DNA of 64,000 nucleotides from Phycisphaerae bacterium (GTDB taxonomy: Bacteria; Planctomycetota; Phycisphaerae; Phycisphaerales; Phycisphaeraceae): the NCBI GenBank assembly GCA_030432595.1, contig JAUIGU010000022.1, forward strand, positions 1-64,000, written 5' to 3'. Positions 7,370 to 54,094 of this stretch are shown here, piece by piece. The notes beneath the pieces are model-generated. The model saw nothing but the letters and a program-made list of their open reading frames with translations, had not been told where the DNA came from and searched no databases. Both the position numbers and the translations under genes were made by a program. The stretch's first letter is position 1. Each line of letters opens with the position of its first letter.

Positions 7370-8581
7370 CTACGCAAGGTCCTCTCCCGGGTCGTTTCTC
7401 TGGTTGGGTTCGGCTTCCTCGCCGAACACACGCACCCACTCGGGCTTATCCATCGCGCCGGCGCGGATCAGGTCCTGGGCAACGTCGCGCAGGTCCGCGT
7501 AGGTCGATTGTGCGCGGAACGCCTCGTCGAGCGCGTCCGTGCCGCCGCCGCGCAGCACCGCGTCCCGCGCGGCCTGATCCATGTGTGCATACGACGCGAC
7601 CGGCATCCTTCCTGCGTACCCGCCGGTTCCGTCGCAACGCCGCACCAGCCGCAGCATCACCACGCCCACCAGCGCCCCCGCGACCTGGTAACGCTCGAGC
7701 CCCATCTCCAGCAGCCGCGCCACCGCGCCCGCCGGGCCGCCCGCGTGCAGCGTCGAGACCAGCCGGTGCCCCGACAGCGCCGCCTGCACCGCCACCGCCG
7801 CCGTTGCCGCGTCACGGATCTCGCCCAGCGCCAGCACCTGCGGGTCTTGTCGCAGCATGCTCCGCAGCGCGCGTTCGTACGTCAGCTCGCCGAACGGCGT
7901 GACCTGCACCTGCGTCACGCCCGGCAGGTCGCGCTCGATCGGGTCTTCGAGCGCGACGACGCTCACGCCGGCGTGGGTCTGCACGAGGTGCTCGAGCAGC
8001 GCGTAGGTCGTCGTCGTCTTGCCCGAACCGGCCGGGCCGCACAACAGCAGCATCCCCGCGTCGGCCGAGGCGAACGATCGCAAACCCCGCAACACCGCCG
8101 GCGGCATGCCCAGATCGTTGAGGTTGCGCGGCTGGATCAACTCCGCGGGCAGCCGCACCACCGCGCGCAGGCCGTGGTTCGTCGGCATCACCGAGACCCG
8201 CAGGTCCAGCGCCGCGGGCATCTCTGTCTTTTCCGATGGGGCCGCTTCCAACGCGTCTTCGTCCGAAAGCACGACGCGGCAGCGCCCCTCCTGCGGGATG
8301 TCCAGCCGGTAGGTCAGCAGCTTGGCGAGCACCATCAAACGGTTGACGCGGGCCCGGCCCTGGGTGTGATCGATCTGTTCCAGCGTGTCGAGCATCCCGT
8401 CCACGCGCAGCCGGACGTCGTAGCCCCGGGCGGTGGGTTCCAGGTGCAGGTCGGACGCGCGTTTGGACACGGCGTCGCGCAGCAGCGACACAACCCCGGG
8501 TTTGGCGTCGTGCGGGCCGGGGCCCGGTTCCGGTCCTTCGTTCGGCAGGTCGGCAAGATGGGCGGCGCGGAGCGGGGCCAT
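7370..8581 (-). CDS. GspE/PilB-like secretion ATPase, short form lacking the zinc domain
   Basis: 403 residues from the ATG at 8581. The conserved core is present: SDLHLEP with an RVDGMLD strand near the N-terminus, Walker A GPAGSGKTTTT, the Asp-box region (ALEDPIERDLPGVTQVQV), Walker B-like LALGEIRD and the His box STLHAGG. Compared with GspE/PilB (about 500-570 residues) it lacks the N-terminal T2SSE_N/MshEN domain. The four-Cys zinc subdomain is reduced to one Cys (LVRRCDGTGG). It heads the operon. The start is set by homology to the core and by divergence from the gene at 8704. Powers pseudopilus or pilus assembly. Confidence 0.85.
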   Translation of the reverse strand: MAPLRAAHLADLPNEGPEPGPGPHDAKPGVVSLLRDAVSKRASDLHLEPTARGYDVRLRVDGMLDTLEQIDHTQGRARVNRLMVLAKLLTYRLDIPQEGRCRVVLSDEDALEAAPSEKTEMPAALDLRVSVMPTNHGLRAVVRLPAELIQPRNLNDLGMPPAVLRGLRSFASADAGMLLLCGPAGSGKTTTTYALLEHLVQTHAGVSVVALEDPIERDLPGVTQVQVTPFGELTYERALRSMLRQDPQVLALGEIRDAATAAVAVQAALSGHRLVSTLHAGGPAGAVARLLEMGLERYQVAGALVGVVMLRLVRRCDGTGGYAGRMPVASYAHMDQAARDAVLRGGGTDALDEAFRAQSTYADLRDVAQDLIRAGAMDKPEWVRVFGEEAEPNQRNDPGEDLA

Positions 8582-8703
8582 TACCCCATGGACGTTAGCC
8601 GAGCGGGGTTGATTCGGCCAACGCGCCGCGGCGGCATTCCGAGGCGTTTCTTTCAAAGAAAGGCGCACACCCCCGTGGCCCGGCGATCCTCTAAAATCCG
8701 GGT

Positions 8704-9019
8704 CATGAGCGCGTTGGCACGCCACTGCTTCCGGCACCCGGACCGTGCGGCGATCGGGGTCTGCGTCGTGACCCGCCGGGCGATCTGTGAAGAGTGCTCG
8801 ACGCGGCACCAGGGGGTGAACTATTCAAAGGAAGGCTTGGCCCAGTTCCTCGCCGAGCAGCGTCAAGCCGAGGGCAAAAGCGGCCGGGGCGTGGGGGCGT
8901 GGGTGCTGCTGGGGTTGTTGTCGGCGCCGTCGGCGTACCTGATGTGGCTGGGGCTGGCGATGTTCGGCGAGGCGTTGGTGGATCTGTTGCAGATGTCCGT
9001 GCCGGGGGCGGGCTATTGA
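8704..9019 (+). CDS. Small B-box-type zinc-finger membrane protein
   Basis: 104 residues. The N-terminus has a compact Cys/His set (CFRHPDRAAIGVCVVTRRAICEEC in part) resembling the B-box-like zinc finger common in small bacterial membrane proteins. A C-terminal TM helix follows (GAWVLLGLLSAPSAYLMWLGLAMF). Its stop overlaps the next start (TTGA), so it heads the MoxR-cluster operon. Function unknown. Confidence 0.65.
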
Positions 9020-9810
9020 GCGCGGCGGCGCCGGTGTACGACCCGCGTGCCGACCGGGGGGTTGGTTCGTTGGACCTGGCGTCGGCGTACCTGCGGTCGC
9101 GCGGCGGGGGGGCGGCGGCGTGGTACGTCGTCGCGGTGACGCCGCTGCTGGCGGCGGGGTGGTGGTGGATCGACGCGGTCGTCGCGCAGGCGCGGCGGGA
9201 CCTCGCGCCGCTGAGCCTGCTGCTCGCCGGCGCGATGCTCTGGCGGTGGGCGTGGCTGATGGCGTTGCAGGCGCGCGTCATGAAAGACATCGGGCTGGAC
9301 CTCGCGGTCAGCGCGCCGCGCGCCGTGGCTGTGTTGCTCATACGGCTGGTCGCGCACGCGGTCATGGGGTGGGGCGGCATCCTGATCCTGCCGGGCATCC
9401 TGGGGTTTTATCTGTCGTCGTTCGCGACGCCGACGCTCTTCACCACGACGCACCCCTCGGCCGGCCGGGCGCTGCGGGCGCTGGTCGGCCTGGTGTGGCA
9501 GAACCTCGGCGCGCTGTGGCACCACGCGGCGAAGACCACCCTGCTGTTTTTCCTCTGGCTGCTGAGCCTGGTGCTGGTGCAGTCGATGGTCGCGTTCCTG
9601 GTCTTGCCGAGTCTGTTGGGCATGGACGTGACCGACTGGGAACTCGCCGTCGCGGGCCCGGCGTGGTGGTTCTCGCTGGTGTTCCTGGGCTGGGTGTTGT
9701 TCGACTTCTTCTGGTCGGTCGCGGCGGTGTTCGAGTGGAACCGGCTCGTCTCGCAGCGCAACGGGCGCGACCTGTCGCTGCGGCTGGCCCGGCTGGAGGC
9801 GGAGGCGTGA
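9016..9810 (+). CDS. Polytopic membrane protein of the MoxR cluster, function unknown
   Basis: 264 residues from a TTG at 9016 that overlaps the upstream stop; a GTG at 9034 is an alternative start. Five to six hydrophobic segments are visible (for example AAWYVVAVTPLLAAGWWW, APLSLLLAGAMLWRWAWLMA, WGGILILPGILGFYLSSF, TLLFFLWLLSLVLVQS and WWFSLVFLGWVLFDFFW). No catalytic motif recognised. It is followed by a DUF4129 gene with a GTGA overlap, the usual position of an integral membrane component in these clusters. Confidence 0.7.
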   Translation: MSAAAPVYDPRADRGVGSLDLASAYLRSRGGGAAAWYVVAVTPLLAAGWWWIDAVVAQARRDLAPLSLLLAGAMLWRWAWLMALQARVMKDIGLDLAVSAPRAVAVLLIRLVAHAVMGWGGILILPGILGFYLSSFATPTLFTTTHPSAGRALRALVGLVWQNLGALWHHAAKTTLLFFLWLLSLVLVQSMVAFLVLPSLLGMDVTDWELAVAGPAWWFSLVFLGWVLFDFFWSVAAVFEWNRLVSQRNGRDLSLRLARLEAEA

Positions 9811-18879: not shown

Positions 18880-18972
18880 CGGGTGCCACGGTCTCTTGCG
18901 ACCGTGCTGTTGACCAGCGCCTCGAAGCTTGAAAGCACGGAAGAACACGGTCGCAAGCGACCGTGGCACCCG
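18880..18972. repeat. Palindromic repeat, family F2 (GGTGCCACGGTCGC type)
   Basis: Arms at 18880-18906 and 18946-18972 are reverse complements with one mismatch; each arm contains an inner palindrome (CGGTCGC/GCGACCG). Other copies lie at 42681-42777 and 53994-54084, always just after a gene end. Confidence 0.85.
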
Positions 18973-21993: not shown

Positions 21994-22166
21994 ACCGGGG
22001 ATCGGGTGTCGGGTTCCGGGCTGAAGGATCGGCTCGGTTGATCGCGTTTCACGGACGCGGGGGAAGAAACTTCATCGACGGCCTGTGGCCCGACCTATGG
22101 TTTTGTGGTCGGTATCGCGTGTCTTCCCCGAGACCCGAACCCCGCAACCCGAAACCCAAGACCCGA
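21994..22166. repeat. Palindromic repeat, family F6 (CGGGTTCGGG / CCCGAACCCCG type)
   Basis: A left arm rich in GGGTTCGGG-like units (21994-22021) faces a right arm of CCCGAACCC-like units (22128-22166) across a 106-nt loop. The right arm ends 7 nt before the dnaG ATG, so any ribosome site of dnaG must be inside the repeat; none is visible. Confidence 0.65.
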
Positions 22167-22173
22167 GTCGCCC

Positions 22174-24462
22174 ATGGCCTTCCGCGACAACCAGGACCGT
22201 GACAAAGTCCTCGCCGCCTCGGACATTGTCGAGGTGGTGGGCGAGCACGTCTCGATCAAGGCGAAGGGCCGGGAGTTTGTCGGGCTGTGCTGCTTCCACG
22301 ACGACAGCAAGCCGTCGATGTACGTGAGCCCGAGCAAGCAGATATTCAAATGTTTCGCGTGCGGGGCCGGCGGGTCGGTGTTCGATTTCGTGATGCGCTA
22401 CCACAAGATGACCTTCCCCGAGGCGCTGCGGTACCTGGCGGACCGCGCGGGGATCAAGCTGACGCCGTGGAAGCGGGAAGCGGGGAACGGGGACCCGGGA
22501 TCGGAAGAAAACCGGGGCCCGTCGCTGCGGGAACGCTTGAGCGAGGCGAACGCGCAGACGCTCGAGTTCTACCGCAGGCTTTTGCAGCACGACGAGCACG
22601 GGGCCGAGGCACGCGGCTACCTCGAACGCCGCGGCGTCACGGCCGAGATGATCGAGCGCTTCCAGCTCGGCGTCGCCCCCGACCGCTGGGACGGCCTGGC
22701 GACGATGGTCGGGCACAAGGGGTGGGACGTGGAGGCGTTTGTGTCCGCCGGGCTCATCAAGCCGCGGCGTTCCGCCGCGGAGGGTGCCGGGGACAGGGTT
22801 CAGGGTTCGGGCGAACAGCCGGAACCGCAAAACGATCCTGATTCTTCCCCAAGCCCCGAACCCCGTACCCCGAACCCCGCAGTCGCCCCCGGCGACTGCT
22901 TTGACCTGCTCCGCCACCGCCTCATCTTCCCGATCTGTGACCAACTCGGCCGGCCTGTTGCGTTCGGCGGGCGGAAGCTGCGCGAAGAAGACGAGCCCAA
23001 GTACCTCAACTCGCCCGAGTCGGCCGTGTTCCACAAGTCCGGCACGCTCTACGGCCTGCACCTCGCGAAGAAAACCATCATCGATTCGCAGACCGCGGTC
23101 ATGGTCGAGGGTTACACCGACGTCATCGCGTGCCACCAGCACGGCGCGACCAACGTCGTTGCGGCCTTGGGCACCGCGCTCACCGCCGACCACGCGAAGG
23201 TGCTCAAGCGATTCGCCGAGCGGATCGTGCTGGTGATGGACGGCGACGAGGCCGGGCAACGCGCCGCGGACCGTGCGATCGAGGTGTTCCTCACGGCCGA
23301 GCTGGACGTATACCTCGCGGTGATCCCCGGCGGGGCGGACCCGGACGAGCTGTTGCAAGACCGTGGCCTGGACGGTTGGAACGACGTGATCACCTCGGCG
23401 CAGGATGCGCTCCAGTGGCAGTTCGACCGGCTGGCCGAGTCGCTGGACGACGCGCAGACGGTGACGGGTCGGCAGCGTCTGGCCGAGGCGTTCGCGCGGC
23501 GGGTGGTGGACGCTGGGCTGGCCCGGGCGGGGGCGCTGCGGCGGGCGTTCATCGTGCAGCGGCTGGCGGAGCTTCTGGGGCTGGGCGTGCCGGCGGTGGA
23601 GTCGCTGCTGGGCAGCTTTCAGCCGCGCCGGCGGGTGCAGGCCCCGCGACCGCCGGCACCCAAACCGGCCCCCCACTCCGACCCCTCGGCCGACGGGTTG
23701 AACACGCCGGGTCCGGAAACCGGGGAATCTGGGGTGTCTGCGGCGGAGGACGATGCGTACGCCCAGTACCTTTCGGAGTCCGAGGGGGCGGGTTTCTCGG
23801 ACGGCGCGTTAAACCAGGAAAATCAAGCCGATTCTGCCGTTGCTTCCGCCATTTCCGGGGGTAAGCTCAGAGGGTTGGAGCGAGCGGAGAGGCGGGTCAT
23901 CGCGGCGTTGGTGACCGACAACGAGCTCTTTCACCACGCCCTGCCCGGCGGCCGCAGCGTCGACGAGGCGGTGGCCCCGGCCGAGTTCGTCACGCCCCTG
24001 CACCGTGCGCTCTACCAACGGCTGTTCGACGCGCTGTGCGGCGGACACGCCGTCACCCTGGCCGGCCTGCTCACCGACCTGGCCGCCGAGGGCCGACCCG
24101 ACCTCGCCGACGCCCTGCACCGCGCCGACACCGAGCTGACCCGCCTGCTCGACGGAGACCCCAACCCCCACGCCCGCACCGACACCCTCGTCAAGTCCGC
24201 CGGCGACCTGTTGGACTTCGAGGTCCAACGCCAACGCGAACAGGCCCGGCAACAGCTCACGCATAACCCTGGATTTCCCCCCCCAATCCCGCAAGAAACC
24301 GAGGACACCCCCGCCTACGATTCAGACACGACCCGCACCGGCGACCCCCGCGAATCACCGGCAGCGCCCGACAAGCTGGCCCAACTCCAGGCCCTGATCG
24401 AGGACTGCAAAACCTCCGCGTCGCCCAAGCGCATCGCCCGCGTCTCGTCCAAACCGCAGTAG
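22174..24462 (+). CDS. dnaG: DNA primase
   Basis: 762 residues, longer than the usual 580-660. Synthesises RNA primers at the replication fork. Zinc domain C39/H42/C60/C63 (CCFHDD ... CFACG), RNA polymerase core, TOPRIM with EGYTD near 311 and the metal Asp motif VMDGDEAG. A C-terminal region starts after a linker near 570. The extra length comes partly from an in-frame insertion at about residues 204-236 (QGSGEQPEPQNDPDSSPSPE), encoded by an F6 palindromic repeat (22788-22879), and partly from a Pro/Glu-rich stretch (about 490-560). Encoded just before rpoD, the classical rpsU-dnaG-rpoD neighbourhood without rpsU. Confidence 0.95.
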   Translation: MAFRDNQDRDKVLAASDIVEVVGEHVSIKAKGREFVGLCCFHDDSKPSMYVSPSKQIFKCFACGAGGSVFDFVMRYHKMTFPEALRYLADRAGIKLTPWKREAGNGDPGSEENRGPSLRERLSEANAQTLEFYRRLLQHDEHGAEARGYLERRGVTAEMIERFQLGVAPDRWDGLATMVGHKGWDVEAFVSAGLIKPRRSAAEGAGDRVQGSGEQPEPQNDPDSSPSPEPRTPNPAVAPGDCFDLLRHRLIFPICDQLGRPVAFGGRKLREEDEPKYLNSPESAVFHKSGTLYGLHLAKKTIIDSQTAVMVEGYTDVIACHQHGATNVVAALGTALTADHAKVLKRFAERIVLVMDGDEAGQRAADRAIEVFLTAELDVYLAVIPGGADPDELLQDRGLDGWNDVITSAQDALQWQFDRLAESLDDAQTVTGRQRLAEAFARRVVDAGLARAGALRRAFIVQRLAELLGLGVPAVESLLGSFQPRRRVQAPRPPAPKPAPHSDPSADGLNTPGPETGESGVSAAEDDAYAQYLSESEGAGFSDGALNQENQADSAVASAISGGKLRGLERAERRVIAALVTDNELFHHALPGGRSVDEAVAPAEFVTPLHRALYQRLFDALCGGHAVTLAGLLTDLAAEGRPDLADALHRADTELTRLLDGDPNPHARTDTLVKSAGDLLDFEVQRQREQARQQLTHNPGFPPPIPQETEDTPAYDSDTTRTGDPRESPAAPDKLAQLQALIEDCKTSASPKRIARVSSKPQ
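22788..22879. repeat. Palindromic repeat, family F6, inserted inside dnaG
   Basis: The left arm (22788-22813, GGGTTCAGGGTTCGGG units) and right arm (22847-22879, CCCCGAACCCCG units) are imperfect reverse complements and lie within the dnaG coding sequence, read in frame as a Pro/Ser/Glu-rich linker between the RNA-polymerase subdomains. Confidence 0.75.
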
Positions 24463-29897: not shown

Positions 29898-29984
29898 AAG
29901 TAGACAGTAGCCAGGAGTCAGTAGCCAGTAGATGACTCCGCGTTTGCTTCTCTCCTGACTACTGGCTCCTGACTCCTGGCTCCT
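29898..29984. repeat. Palindromic repeat, family F4 (CAGTAG / CTACTG units), gene-less copy
   Basis: Left arm 29898-29931 of AGTAGCCAG-type units, loop 29932-29952, right arm 29953-29984 of CTGACTACTGGCTCC-type units. It ends 4 nt before the flgG ATG, leaving no room for a Shine-Dalgarno. Other members at 35109-35205 and 39711-40155. Confidence 0.75.
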
Positions 29985-29988
29985 TCCC

Positions 29989-35108: not shown

Positions 35109-35205
35109 AAGGAGCCAGTAGCCAGTAGTCAGTAGCCAGTAGGTCACGGGAAGTCTTTGGTTTGGTGCTTTGCTCCTGACTACTGACTCCTGACTCCTGA
35201 CTCCT
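35109..35205. repeat. Palindromic repeat, family F4, gene-less copy before flgK
   Basis: Left arm 35109-35143 (AGGAGCCAGTAGCCAGTAG-type units) and right arm 35173-35205 (CTCCTGACTACTGACTCC-type units) across a 29-nt loop. The right arm ends 7 nt before the flgK ATG, again without a visible Shine-Dalgarno outside the repeat. Confidence 0.8.
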
Positions 35206-36927: not shown

Positions 36928-37098
36928 GTGAAACCGCAGATGAACACAGATAAACGCAGATTGCTTTTGAGTTCTCAGATCAATTGGCCTGAGGCGTTGT
37001 CGATCCTGGTTGTTTATGGGGTCAAATCTGTGCCATCTGTGAAATCTGCGTGTCCTTCCTTTCGTAATCGGCGTTTATCTGTGTTTATCGGTGGTTTC
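36928..37098. repeat. Palindromic repeat, family F5 (ACACAGATAAACGCAG type)
   Basis: Left arm 36928-36962 containing GAACACAGATAAACGCAG; right arm 37070-37098 containing GCGTTTATCTGTGTTTATC; about 110 nt apart with further ATCTGTG fragments in the loop. Fills the flgK-flgL gap. AT-richer than its surroundings. Confidence 0.75.
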
Positions 37099-37110
37099 AT
37101 CCTCTAACAC

Positions 37111-39710: not shown

Positions 39711-40155
39711 AAGTAGCCAGTAGCCGGTAGTCAGTAGTCAGGAGTGAAACGTCGTGGCTGAATCAAGACCTGCAACTCGAACGTTCACCCAGGTCCAGGC
39801 CTGGCAGAAGGCTCACGCGTTCGTGCTGCTGGTTTACAAAGCCACGAAGAAGTTTCCCGACGACGAGCGCTTCGGGCTCACGGCACAACTCCGCCGCGCC
39901 GCAGTATCGATCCCGGCCAACTTCGCCGAGGGATACGGCAAGCGGTCCAAAGCCGAGAAGCTCCGCTTTATGGAGATCTCGCGCGGCTCGATCGAAGAAT
40001 GCCGCTACTACACGATCCTTGCCGGAGACCTCGGGTACACCAAGACCAACCGACTTGCGGACGCACTCGAAGAGGCAAGCAAACTCCTCGCGTCCTACGC
40101 CGCCGGCCTCCGCCGGTCCCGACAATCCGCCTGACTACTGACTACTGACTACTGA
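39711..40155. mobile_element. Candidate F4 element carrying a four-helix-bundle gene
   Basis: Inverted repeats of CAGTAG/CTACTG units bracket the four-helix-bundle gene: left 39711-39746 (AGTAGCCAGTAGCC, CAGTAGTCAGGAG), right 40131-40155 (CTGACTACTGACTACTGAC). The AGGAG of the gene's ribosome site lies in the left repeat, and the TGA stop (40132-40134) lies in the right repeat. It interrupts the otherwise conserved fliW-csrA neighbourhood. Two copies of the same inverted repeat without the gene are at 29898-29984 and 35109-35205. No transposase is present, so mobilisation in trans or another mechanism is inferred. Confidence 0.55.
39754..40134 (+). CDS. Four-helix-bundle protein (23S rRNA-intervening-sequence type, TIGR02436-like)
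   Basis: 126 residues from a GTG, 9 nt after an AGGAG. Family motifs are clear: VQAWQKAHAFVLLVYKATKKFP, FGLTAQLRRAAVSIPANFAEGYG and GSIEECRYYTILAGDLGY. Homologues occur inside 23S rRNA intervening sequences and as free-standing genes; they form a pentameric four-helix bundle with proposed nucleic-acid binding. No role in flagella is known. The basic C-terminus (GLRRSRQSA) runs into the right inverted repeat, which provides its stop. Confidence 0.9.
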   Translation: MAESRPATRTFTQVQAWQKAHAFVLLVYKATKKFPDDERFGLTAQLRRAAVSIPANFAEGYGKRSKAEKLRFMEISRGSIEECRYYTILAGDLGYTKTNRLADALEEASKLLASYAAGLRRSRQSA

Positions 40156-40206
40156 ATTCCGCCGCTGGAAGCGGCGCATCTGGCCCACGGAAGGAGCCGC
40201 CCCCCC

Positions 40207-51845: not shown

Positions 51846-51990
51846 GAAGATCAAGAACATCCAGAAAATCGAGAACATCCGGAAAACCGAAACGGCGATC
51901 AGTCCGCATCGAACCCTCGGCCAACCGCGGACCACGATTCACGCCTCTTGGTTTTCTGGATGTTCCCGATGTCCTGCATGTTCCCGATTC
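51846..51990. repeat. Palindromic repeat, family F7 (AGAACATCCAGAAAA type), overlapping a gene end
   Basis: Left arm 51846-51888 (ATCAAGAACATCCAGAAAA, CGAGAACATCCGGAAAACC) and right arm 51950-51990 (GGTTTTCTGGATGTTCCCG and following) are imperfect inverted copies. The right arm codes for the C-terminus of the glycosyltransferase gene. Confidence 0.7.
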
Positions 51991-53966: not shown

Positions 53967-53993
53967 CGCGTCGATATCTGTTTTTCACTGTTT

Positions 53994-54084
53994 CGGGGGT
54001 GCCACGGTCGCTTGCGACCGTGCGATGTCTTGAGCACGCGTAGTGGTTCACTGACCGCACCGTCGCAAGCGACGGTGGCACCCG
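53994..54084. repeat. Palindromic repeat, family F2 (GGTGCCACGGTCGC type)
   Basis: Left arm 53994-54023 and right arm 54057-54084 are near-perfect reverse complements, each with an internal CGGTCGCTTGCGACC palindrome. It lies just beyond the stop codons of both the LysM gene and lysA (which converge on it). Confidence 0.85.
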
Positions 54085-54094
54085 AGAAAAGAAG

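Follow-up and report, generated by a model that had tools for sequence, protein, structure and literature searches.

A four-helix-bundle gene between inverted arrays of short repeats as a putative mobile element without a transposase

The 64,000-nt stretch of DNA analysed here (the window) comes from a Phycisphaerae bacterium and carries, among its flagellar genes, a gene for a four-helix-bundle (4HB) protein enclosed by two inverted arms made of short tandem repeats. We consider it probable (around 0.7) that the unit at 39712-40160 is a selfish mobile element that encodes no transposase and whose ring-forming protein reads about five AG cores in each arm; the binding itself is inferred.

The element and its arms

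The 4HB gene lies on the forward strand at 39754-40134, between fliW and a csrA-like gene; it has a GTG start, a TGA stop at 40132-40134, and a product of 126 aa. The left arm (39712-39746, forward strand) reads AGTAGCC AGTAGCC GGTAGTC AGTAGTC AGGAG; its first core is located 4 nt past the last base of the fliW stop codon, and the AGGAG ribosome site of the gene (39740-39744) is contained within it. The right arm (40130-40160, forward strand) is the inverted copy, CCTGACTACTGACTACTGACTACTG and onwards, and overlaps the TGA stop. An inverted-repeat search of the window paired 39718-39742 with 40130-40154 at 92% complementarity. The preliminary description had placed the gene between CAGTAG/CTACTG arms, with AGGAG in the left arm and TGA in the right one, and both the coordinates and the pairing agree with it.

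These arms are tandem 7-mers that are better read as AG cores spaced 7 nt. The cores of the left arm are at 39712, 39719, 39726 (where the dinucleotide is GG), 39733 and 39740, and the mirror CT dinucleotides of the right arm are at 40131, 40138, 40145 and 40152, with a CC at 40159; each arm of this gene-bearing copy has thus five core positions, but given one GG and one CC the exact count of AG is below five. In the genome from which the window comes, AGTMGYCAGKAGYCAGKAG as arm pattern is matched 32 times (overlapping matches counted) and the reversed control pattern never, so the repeats are not a product of chance.

The protein belongs to TIGR02436 (E 4.7e-33, 113.7 bits versus a curated cut-off of 24) and PF05635 (E 1.9e-34, 118.5 bits versus a curated cut-off of 33.8). 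The assignment to the 4HB family rests on these profile matches together with the predicted structure: an AF2 model, of the monomer only, shows four helices with a pLDDT of 93, and its closest solved fold is 2gsc, the structure of XCC0516 (Foldseek E 1.9e-7). Two ORFs are present inside the arms, the 4HB ORF and, antisense to it on the same stretch, one of 120 aa; an identity was obtained for the former only, and no transposase or recombinase was found between the arms.

Arms around other 4HB genes

The same genome (4.39 Mb) contains ten TIGR02436 genes, nine of which are flanked by inverted arms of short tandem repeats, each gene with its own unit of 7-9 nt: AGTAGTC, CGAAAGT, GATTGCC, ATTGATG, GATGTTA and GGCGGAT (7 nt), AGTAGAGC (8 nt) and AAACGCAGG (9 nt). 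The exception without arms is a weak member of the family (L010, 38.7 bits); in another gene, L007, the ORF reads through the right arm and the arms are nonetheless present (L263, 17833-18275). It had been proposed that the CAGTAG/CTACTG arms were the vehicle of the whole family, and this had to be given up, since nearly every TIGR02436 gene has a unit of its own. Because of this, the observation that was to refute the mobile unit, i.e., genes of the family elsewhere without these arms, takes another form: the other genes lack CAGTAG/CTACTG arms and carry equivalents instead. Some subclades also have a core other than AG, as illustrated by the GGGGTTT and GATT types.

With an inverted-repeat score of at least 18, arms were detected around 8 of the 10 4HB genes of this genome, and around 55 of 80 4HB genes at named loci of many phyla versus 5 of 334 other ORFs at the same loci. 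Two of these five control ORFs are further 4HB genes (L184, L202), a third (L206) is a gene between separate gene-less hairpins, L173 is an AT-rich match, and L214 resembles the gene of a Y1-type transposase; at this last locus (8579-9134) the ORF is RAYT-like and a GC-rich hairpin lies alongside. In genomes of the same family, 36 of 63 4HB genes reached the score of 18 and 27 fell below it. A further set of 32 genomes had arms with a unit in 71 of 78 4HB genes (90 were fetched, and 12 were dropped with cores identical to genes already in the sample), and 23 of 30 genes from Xanthomonadales had arms. Plasmid copies reached a score of at least 17 in nine of ten cases; these ten were picked by hand among 25 plasmid records with a match, and two pairs of them are near-identical sites. 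The family comprises at least 590 relatives among the matches listed.

The low-scoring, unarmed genes of the same-family set may be resident host genes, although this is an inference. Low-scoring TIGR02436 relatives, mostly without arms, are found at L010, L097-L103 and L131-L140, possibly a resident host clade. A separate observation is the 4HB gene at L401, which has unusual arms of longer units (CTGGGGAACG, with hairpins between) and a score of 51. No viral contigs with close relatives were found in a search with a single protein as query that covered close relatives only.

A second, unrelated family shows the architecture of the 4HB element. GxxExxY genes (TIGR04256; L041-L047 and L355-L382) had inverted arms with units of 8-10 nt in 25 of the 34 genes read (35 were fetched, and one was left out for too short a flank). 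The three GxxExxY proteins tested match PF13366, of the PD-(D/E)XK nuclease superfamily. In the 50 arms of the 25 armed genes, three cores was the commonest number (30 arms), as counted with a looser pattern that was chosen after the arms had been seen. That a second family, of nucleases, has the same architecture suggests a general way of building a mobile element.

Gene-less hairpins

The unit of the window element also occurs in two hairpins without a gene. One of them (29898-29985) is located between the flgF stop and the flgG start, and its arms, 29906-29931 and 29959-29984, pair at 92%; the other (35110-35205) is placed between the flgN stop and the flgK start, with 35110-35142 pairing at 82% with 35173-35205. 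Both have five AG cores per arm, and the gene-less copies that had been noticed before flgG and flgK were recovered as inverted pairs. Three more hairpins of the window have units of other types. The one in the flgK/flgL gap (36929-37099) is of the GxxExxY type, with a unit of 10 nt (compare the gene-bearing loci L376, L358 and L379); that at 21996-22165 has the unit CGGGTTT, which shares six of seven letters with the unit of a 4HB gene of the same genome (L001), and that at 22782-22877, with the unit GGGTTCG, is of the same class. Elsewhere in the window there is a hairpin with arms of 9-nt-like units (ATCAAGAACATCCAGAAAATCGAGAACATCC) at 51850-51988, and two copies of a palindrome (GGGTGCCACGGTC...GACCGTGGCACCC-like) at 18880-18972 and 53991-54089 that bear no relation to the heptamer arms.

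In 464 kb of this genome, some of it chosen around AGTAGTC sites, paired tandem arrays were searched for; 85 matches were obtained versus 3 after letter shuffling in 100-nt windows, and some of the 85 are coding repeats rich in GC. Among the 25 gene-less hairpins with units of 7 or 8 nt that passed the filter in these 464 kb, 23 match a unit borne by a gene of the same genome in at least six of seven letters, versus a mean of 6.7 and a maximum of 17 in 2000 draws of equal numbers of units from related genomes. Without the nine hairpins of the AGTAGTC type the match is still 14 of 16. Short non-coding copies with the termini of a coding copy, a feature of MITEs, are therefore present. At the named loci, the unit of a gene-less hairpin agrees with that of the local 4HB gene in 4 of 16 cases (permuted mean 0.5, maximum 4), and the mean similarity of hairpin and gene units is 0.536 versus a permuted maximum of 0.585; the result has the expected direction and is weak, and the test used only the 4HB gene of the same locus, not the other 4HB genes of those genomes. 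An Rfam search returned two matches with scores of 28.8 and 28.2, far below the gathering score of 99.

Occupied and empty sites

At six sites in cyanobacterial plasmids, relatives were found that lack both the gene and the arms. Site S1 is filled in Trichormus variabilis plasmid C and in Scytonema, and empty in Nostoc linckia and Aulosira plasmid 3, with flanks 97-98% identical to those of T. variabilis. At S2, in Picosynechococcus PCC 7003 (L224, NZ_CP016476.1), the element separates cas10 from cmr3 in a type III-B CRISPR operon, and the site is empty in PCC 7002 (89% identical). S3, a tra site, is filled in Nostoc edaphicum and empty in L239 (88%), and L238 holds a gene-less hairpin there. 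In the filled copy of S4 (Aulosira plasmid 2) the upstream gene is about ten codons shorter and a stop codon stands at the junction. S5, a gap in one Nostoc operon, is filled in L225, L243 and L244 and empty in L236, L237 and L241; in L242 a different element, of the AGGGAAA type, occupies the next gap of the operon. S6 is filled in Calothrix brevissima, where the last codons of an integrase gene are replaced, and empty in three relatives. A seventh candidate, S7 (L228), was rejected as a clean pair of empty and filled sites, as its relatives carry a different intergenic sequence. In L244 (NZ_CP026682.1, 1222-1391) a 4HB gene is itself broken by a gene-less hairpin of the same unit with five cores per arm; compared with the intact gene of L225 and L243, the duplication at this junction is 0-1 base.

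These sites answer two questions raised by the preliminary description. It had regarded gene and arms as one mobile unit that contains no transposase and gives rise to gene-less derivatives, and had asked for homologous loci that are empty or gene-less; the joint presence or absence of gene and arms at the six plasmid sites, and the units shared with the hairpins, bear this idea out. Its search for target-site duplications was met only in part: a clear duplication exists at S1 alone, where the filled copy is bracketed by GTAAT (5 bp, or 8 bp if one mismatch is allowed), whereas none is clear at S4 and S6, that of L244 is limited to 0-1 bp, and S5 is ambiguous. The junctions therefore vary: some have a short duplication, some have none, and some have lost a little sequence. 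With no fixed duplication of the target apparent at these junctions, an insertion of the repair or template-switch type would be favoured over a classical transposase.

The site of the window element was followed in relatives as well. In a survey of 30 fliW-csrA loci, taken from the 59 genomes in which FliW had a match, 29 gaps were resolved (L077 was left unresolved) and only that of the present genome is filled; the other 28 gaps measure 56-301 nt, too short for a 4HB gene. One of them, L057, contains an independent gene-less hairpin with another unit.

Most elements follow closely on the stop codon of a gene with the same orientation. The upstream gene is co-directional in 112 of the 134 elements for which both neighbours were predicted, and in loci below 55% GC in 58 of 61. 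For control pairs, taken from all loci, the figure is 185 of 279. The distance from stop codon to arm has a median of 3.5 nt, with 80 of 112 elements between -10 and +15 nt. This placement reflects either an insertion preference, or the survival and expression of only those landings; the copy in L244 reveals that insertion within a gene also occurs.

Five cores and a putatively ring-shaped protein

Chains of AG with exact spacing were counted in the arms of the main clade. The longest chain has five AG in 81 of the 196 period-7 arms (the next class, four, has 25) and in 22 of the 52 period-8 arms (the next, three, has 9). The other dinucleotides of these arms have no peak at five, being mostly four at period 7 and three or four at period 8; GT, which is part of the AGT core, is about evenly divided between four and five at period 7. 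The median array length is 4.57 units at period 7 and 4.62 at period 8. Given the AG peak at five at both spacings and the absence of such a peak for other dinucleotides, it seems that the number of cores, not the length of the arm, is conserved; more than half of the main-clade arms deviate from five AG cores.

XCC0516, a member of the 4HB family, forms a toroidal homopentamer, according to the accessible part of PMC4990558. Five chains each are listed for 2gsc and 2rld among the structure matches, and the five-core peak fits the homopentamer reported for XCC0516. The trp RNA-binding attenuation protein (TRAP) is a ring that reads a repeated short word with tolerant spacing. By analogy with TRAP, and in the absence of binding data, one protomer might bind each AG core; the likeness consists of the ring and the repeated word, and it remains an analogy only, as TRAP serves attenuation and not mobility. 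The two arms of an element match each other in register better than after shuffling the order of the units (99 up and 57 down of 169, p 6.7e-6), and this suggests that the arms pair or are copied from each other.

Correspondence between proteins and arms

Protein identity correlates with unit similarity both for 7-mers (r=0.250, n=86) and for 8-mers (r=0.389, n=25); neither value was reached in 2000 permutations, also when these were made within GC quintiles. Among the five fetched plasmid copies nearest to the window protein (52-58% identity), four have AGGAGTC, AGAAGTC or AGAATTC arms that come close to the mix of AGTAGTC and AGGAGTC in the window, though their hosts belong to another phylum; the fifth, L224, has the 8-nt unit AGGAGATA. 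Such similarity is also to be expected where gene and arms simply travel together.

When the alignment columns of the main clade were scanned, residue 53 (L187 numbering) came out on top, with Y accompanying AGG (30:5) and F accompanying AGT (18:3); 61 of the 161 main-clade genes with a unit were not classifiable as AGG or AGT. In genes added later, which come from the same genomes as the named loci with identical cores removed, the counts of Y/F by AGG/AGT were 14,2/1,12 (Fisher 2.2e-5), so that the rule holds in 26 of 29; another 7 of the 36 labelled genes have neither Y nor F at this position. On a tree with all branches, mostly of weak support, 16 contrasts were available, on average 10.5 in the same direction, none opposite and 5.5 unchanged. 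Supported branches provide only three independent contrasts (on average 2.6 in the same direction, none opposite), and common descent is therefore not excluded as the source of the rule. In the model of the window protein, helix 3 has K69, the counterpart of residue 53, in its first turn, and helix 2 ends with Y61, the counterpart of residue 45, which ranked second; the window protein, with its lysine, is not covered by the Y/F rule, and both AGT and AGG occur in its arms. The pairing of Y or F at residue 53 with AGG or AGT offers a candidate recognition code, which rests on sequences and not on binding data.

Proposed mechanism and alternatives

The mechanism that we propose would run as follows. 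A protein of a ring-forming, putatively pentameric family is encoded between two inverted arms, each of which would present the AG core about five times at a spacing of 7 nt (8 nt in other members), one protomer reading one core. The protein would bind its own arms, probably as single strand, either RNA or hairpin DNA, and this binding would mark cognate hairpins, including the gene-less ones, for copying into new sites. Since the arms hold stop codons and a ribosome site, a landing may be harmless and the gene could be read from a host operon. There are no binding data for this reading, and no enzyme has been identified that would link the copy to the DNA.

A Y1/HUH tyrosine transposase (REP-associated or IS200-like) could instead move the hairpins in trans, as for REPINs, the 4HB protein being a passenger or a helper; we regard this as unlikely, though not ruled out. 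The genome has two Y1_Tnp matches above the cut-off and one REP_Tyr_transpos-like match below its cut-off. In 37 genomes of the same family, a Y1 match is present in every one of the 17 with armed 4HB genes, and armed genes are absent from the five genomes that lack Y1. This association is weak (one-sided p 0.036); three of the five Y1-less genomes are less than 90% complete, and in G012, one of the 17, the sole Y1 match is under the curated cut-off. The absence of duplications at most junctions is compatible with Y1, but S1 has a duplication of 5-8 bp. Moreover, the protein co-varies with the arms, which is not required of a passenger.

Movement by a retroelement in trans, in which an Avd-like 4HB ring delivers the RNA of the arms to a reverse transcriptase whose gene lies elsewhere, is quite unlikely. 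The fold resembles Avd (4dwl and the DGR RNP 8ub7, TM about 0.7, Foldseek E 0.04), the window protein matches the Avd profile NF033474 with E 5.8e-7, and the genome does encode one reverse transcriptase. Nevertheless, 8 of the 17 same-family genomes with armed 4HB genes lack an RVT_1 match, G004 (99% complete) and G027 (98%) included, and there is no association between reverse transcriptase and armed genes (p 0.75). A resident reverse transcriptase as a requirement is thus disfavoured.

It is very unlikely that nothing moves, and that the heptamer hairpins are regulatory or structural RNAs of the host bound by resident 4HB regulators. The hairpins do lie between co-directional genes, near stop and start codons, and regulatory roles are discussed for the TAACTGA and GGGAATC repeats in the available portions of PMC4679880 and PMC4692102, respectively; against this stand the presence or absence of gene and arms at six sites, the sister plasmids with different elements in adjacent gaps of one operon (L225 versus L242), and the gene-less hairpin inside the gene of another element (L244). 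That polymerase slippage made the repeats and the gene was captured by chance can be set aside almost entirely: close copies such as L226 and L227 do differ by two whole units, but slippage yields no matched inverted arms around one gene family, being strongly disfavoured by the 55 of 80 4HB genes with arms versus 5 of 334 other ORFs, and accounts neither for the five cores seen with spacings of 7 nt and 8 nt alike nor for the in-register fit of the arms (p 6.7e-6).

Orphan heptamers and comparison with known systems

Tandem repeats with units of 7 nt and mostly intergenic location have been described as GGGAATC in Xanthomonas, GGGGAYT in Nostoc and TAACTGA in Beggiatoaceae, in the sources as far as available. 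X. campestris has 186 GGGAATC patterns, 70 of them with two sites facing each other, and the heptamers were generally not found tied to mobile elements (PMC4692102, in part); no mechanism is evident for their transfer (PMC4679880, in part). The three genes nearest to XCC0516 (58-59 of 84 residues) among the 30 Xanthomonadales genes have GGGAATC or GGGATTC arms (L396, L398, L400), in a sample that includes no X. campestris locus, and the reverse complement of TAACTGA is a unit of the AGT type. The term 'four helix' is absent from the accessible text of PMC4679880 and PMC4692102, as is 'S23' from that of PMC4679880; the tie between orphan heptamers and 4HB genes is drawn here. In a literature search that included PMC8934634 and no subscription journals or preprints, and within the portions of the papers available, heptamer arms and 4HB genes were tied only in Coxiella rRNA. 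A search for the STRR repeats of cyanobacteria gave no match.

The element group may explain orphan seven-letter repeats in many bacteria. We see about even chances that it represents a class of mobile elements, free of transposases, in bacteria and archaea, which combines a ring protein with one core per subunit (five in 4HB, most commonly three in GxxExxY) and private, co-evolving units, with the orphan heptamers of cyanobacteria, Xanthomonas and Beggiatoaceae and the S23 rRNA intervening sequences as members or debris. Linking the heptamers to a family with solved structures opens the question to a binding assay, and a very widespread family of unknown function, with its at least 590 relatives among the matches listed, would gain a role.

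MITEs and REPINs share with the 4HB element the dispersed, short, gene-less inverted-repeat copies and a gene-bearing relative in the same genome; they differ in that the gene-bearing copy here has no transposase and in that its arms are arrays of 7-8-nt units which vary from element to element. Avd, from diversity-generating retroelements, has a related fold and a weak sequence match to the window protein; however, the protein attains only 29.8 bits versus the NF033474 cut-off of 80, there is no reverse transcriptase at the locus, and the single RVT_1 match of the genome is on contig C19 whereas the window is on C35.

There is a close likeness to the 23S rRNA intervening sequences of Coxiella and Leptospira, which have the same gene family, terminal inverted repeats and heptamers. 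The accessible text of PMC4990558 describes, for Coxiella, an S23 gene, a 28-bp terminal stem and tandem GACAGAT heptamers just before the S23 start codon, in numbers that vary between strains, and refers to older work that proposed mobility for such sequences. The preliminary description had invoked them as a history of dispersal of the family, an argument that the Coxiella heptamers strengthen. The window element has terminal inverted repeats and an ORF of the S23 family as well; the intervening sequences, in contrast, are parts of rRNA helices from which RNase III excises them, whereas the window element is outside any rRNA gene, between two protein genes. The matching of unit and protein, the five cores and the dispersed gene-less copies are not described for them in the part of that paper available. 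If the rRNA intervening sequences are counted as the same kind, the element may be less novel; relative to its nearest kinds it is new, since it has neither the rRNA location of the one nor the encoded transposase of the other.
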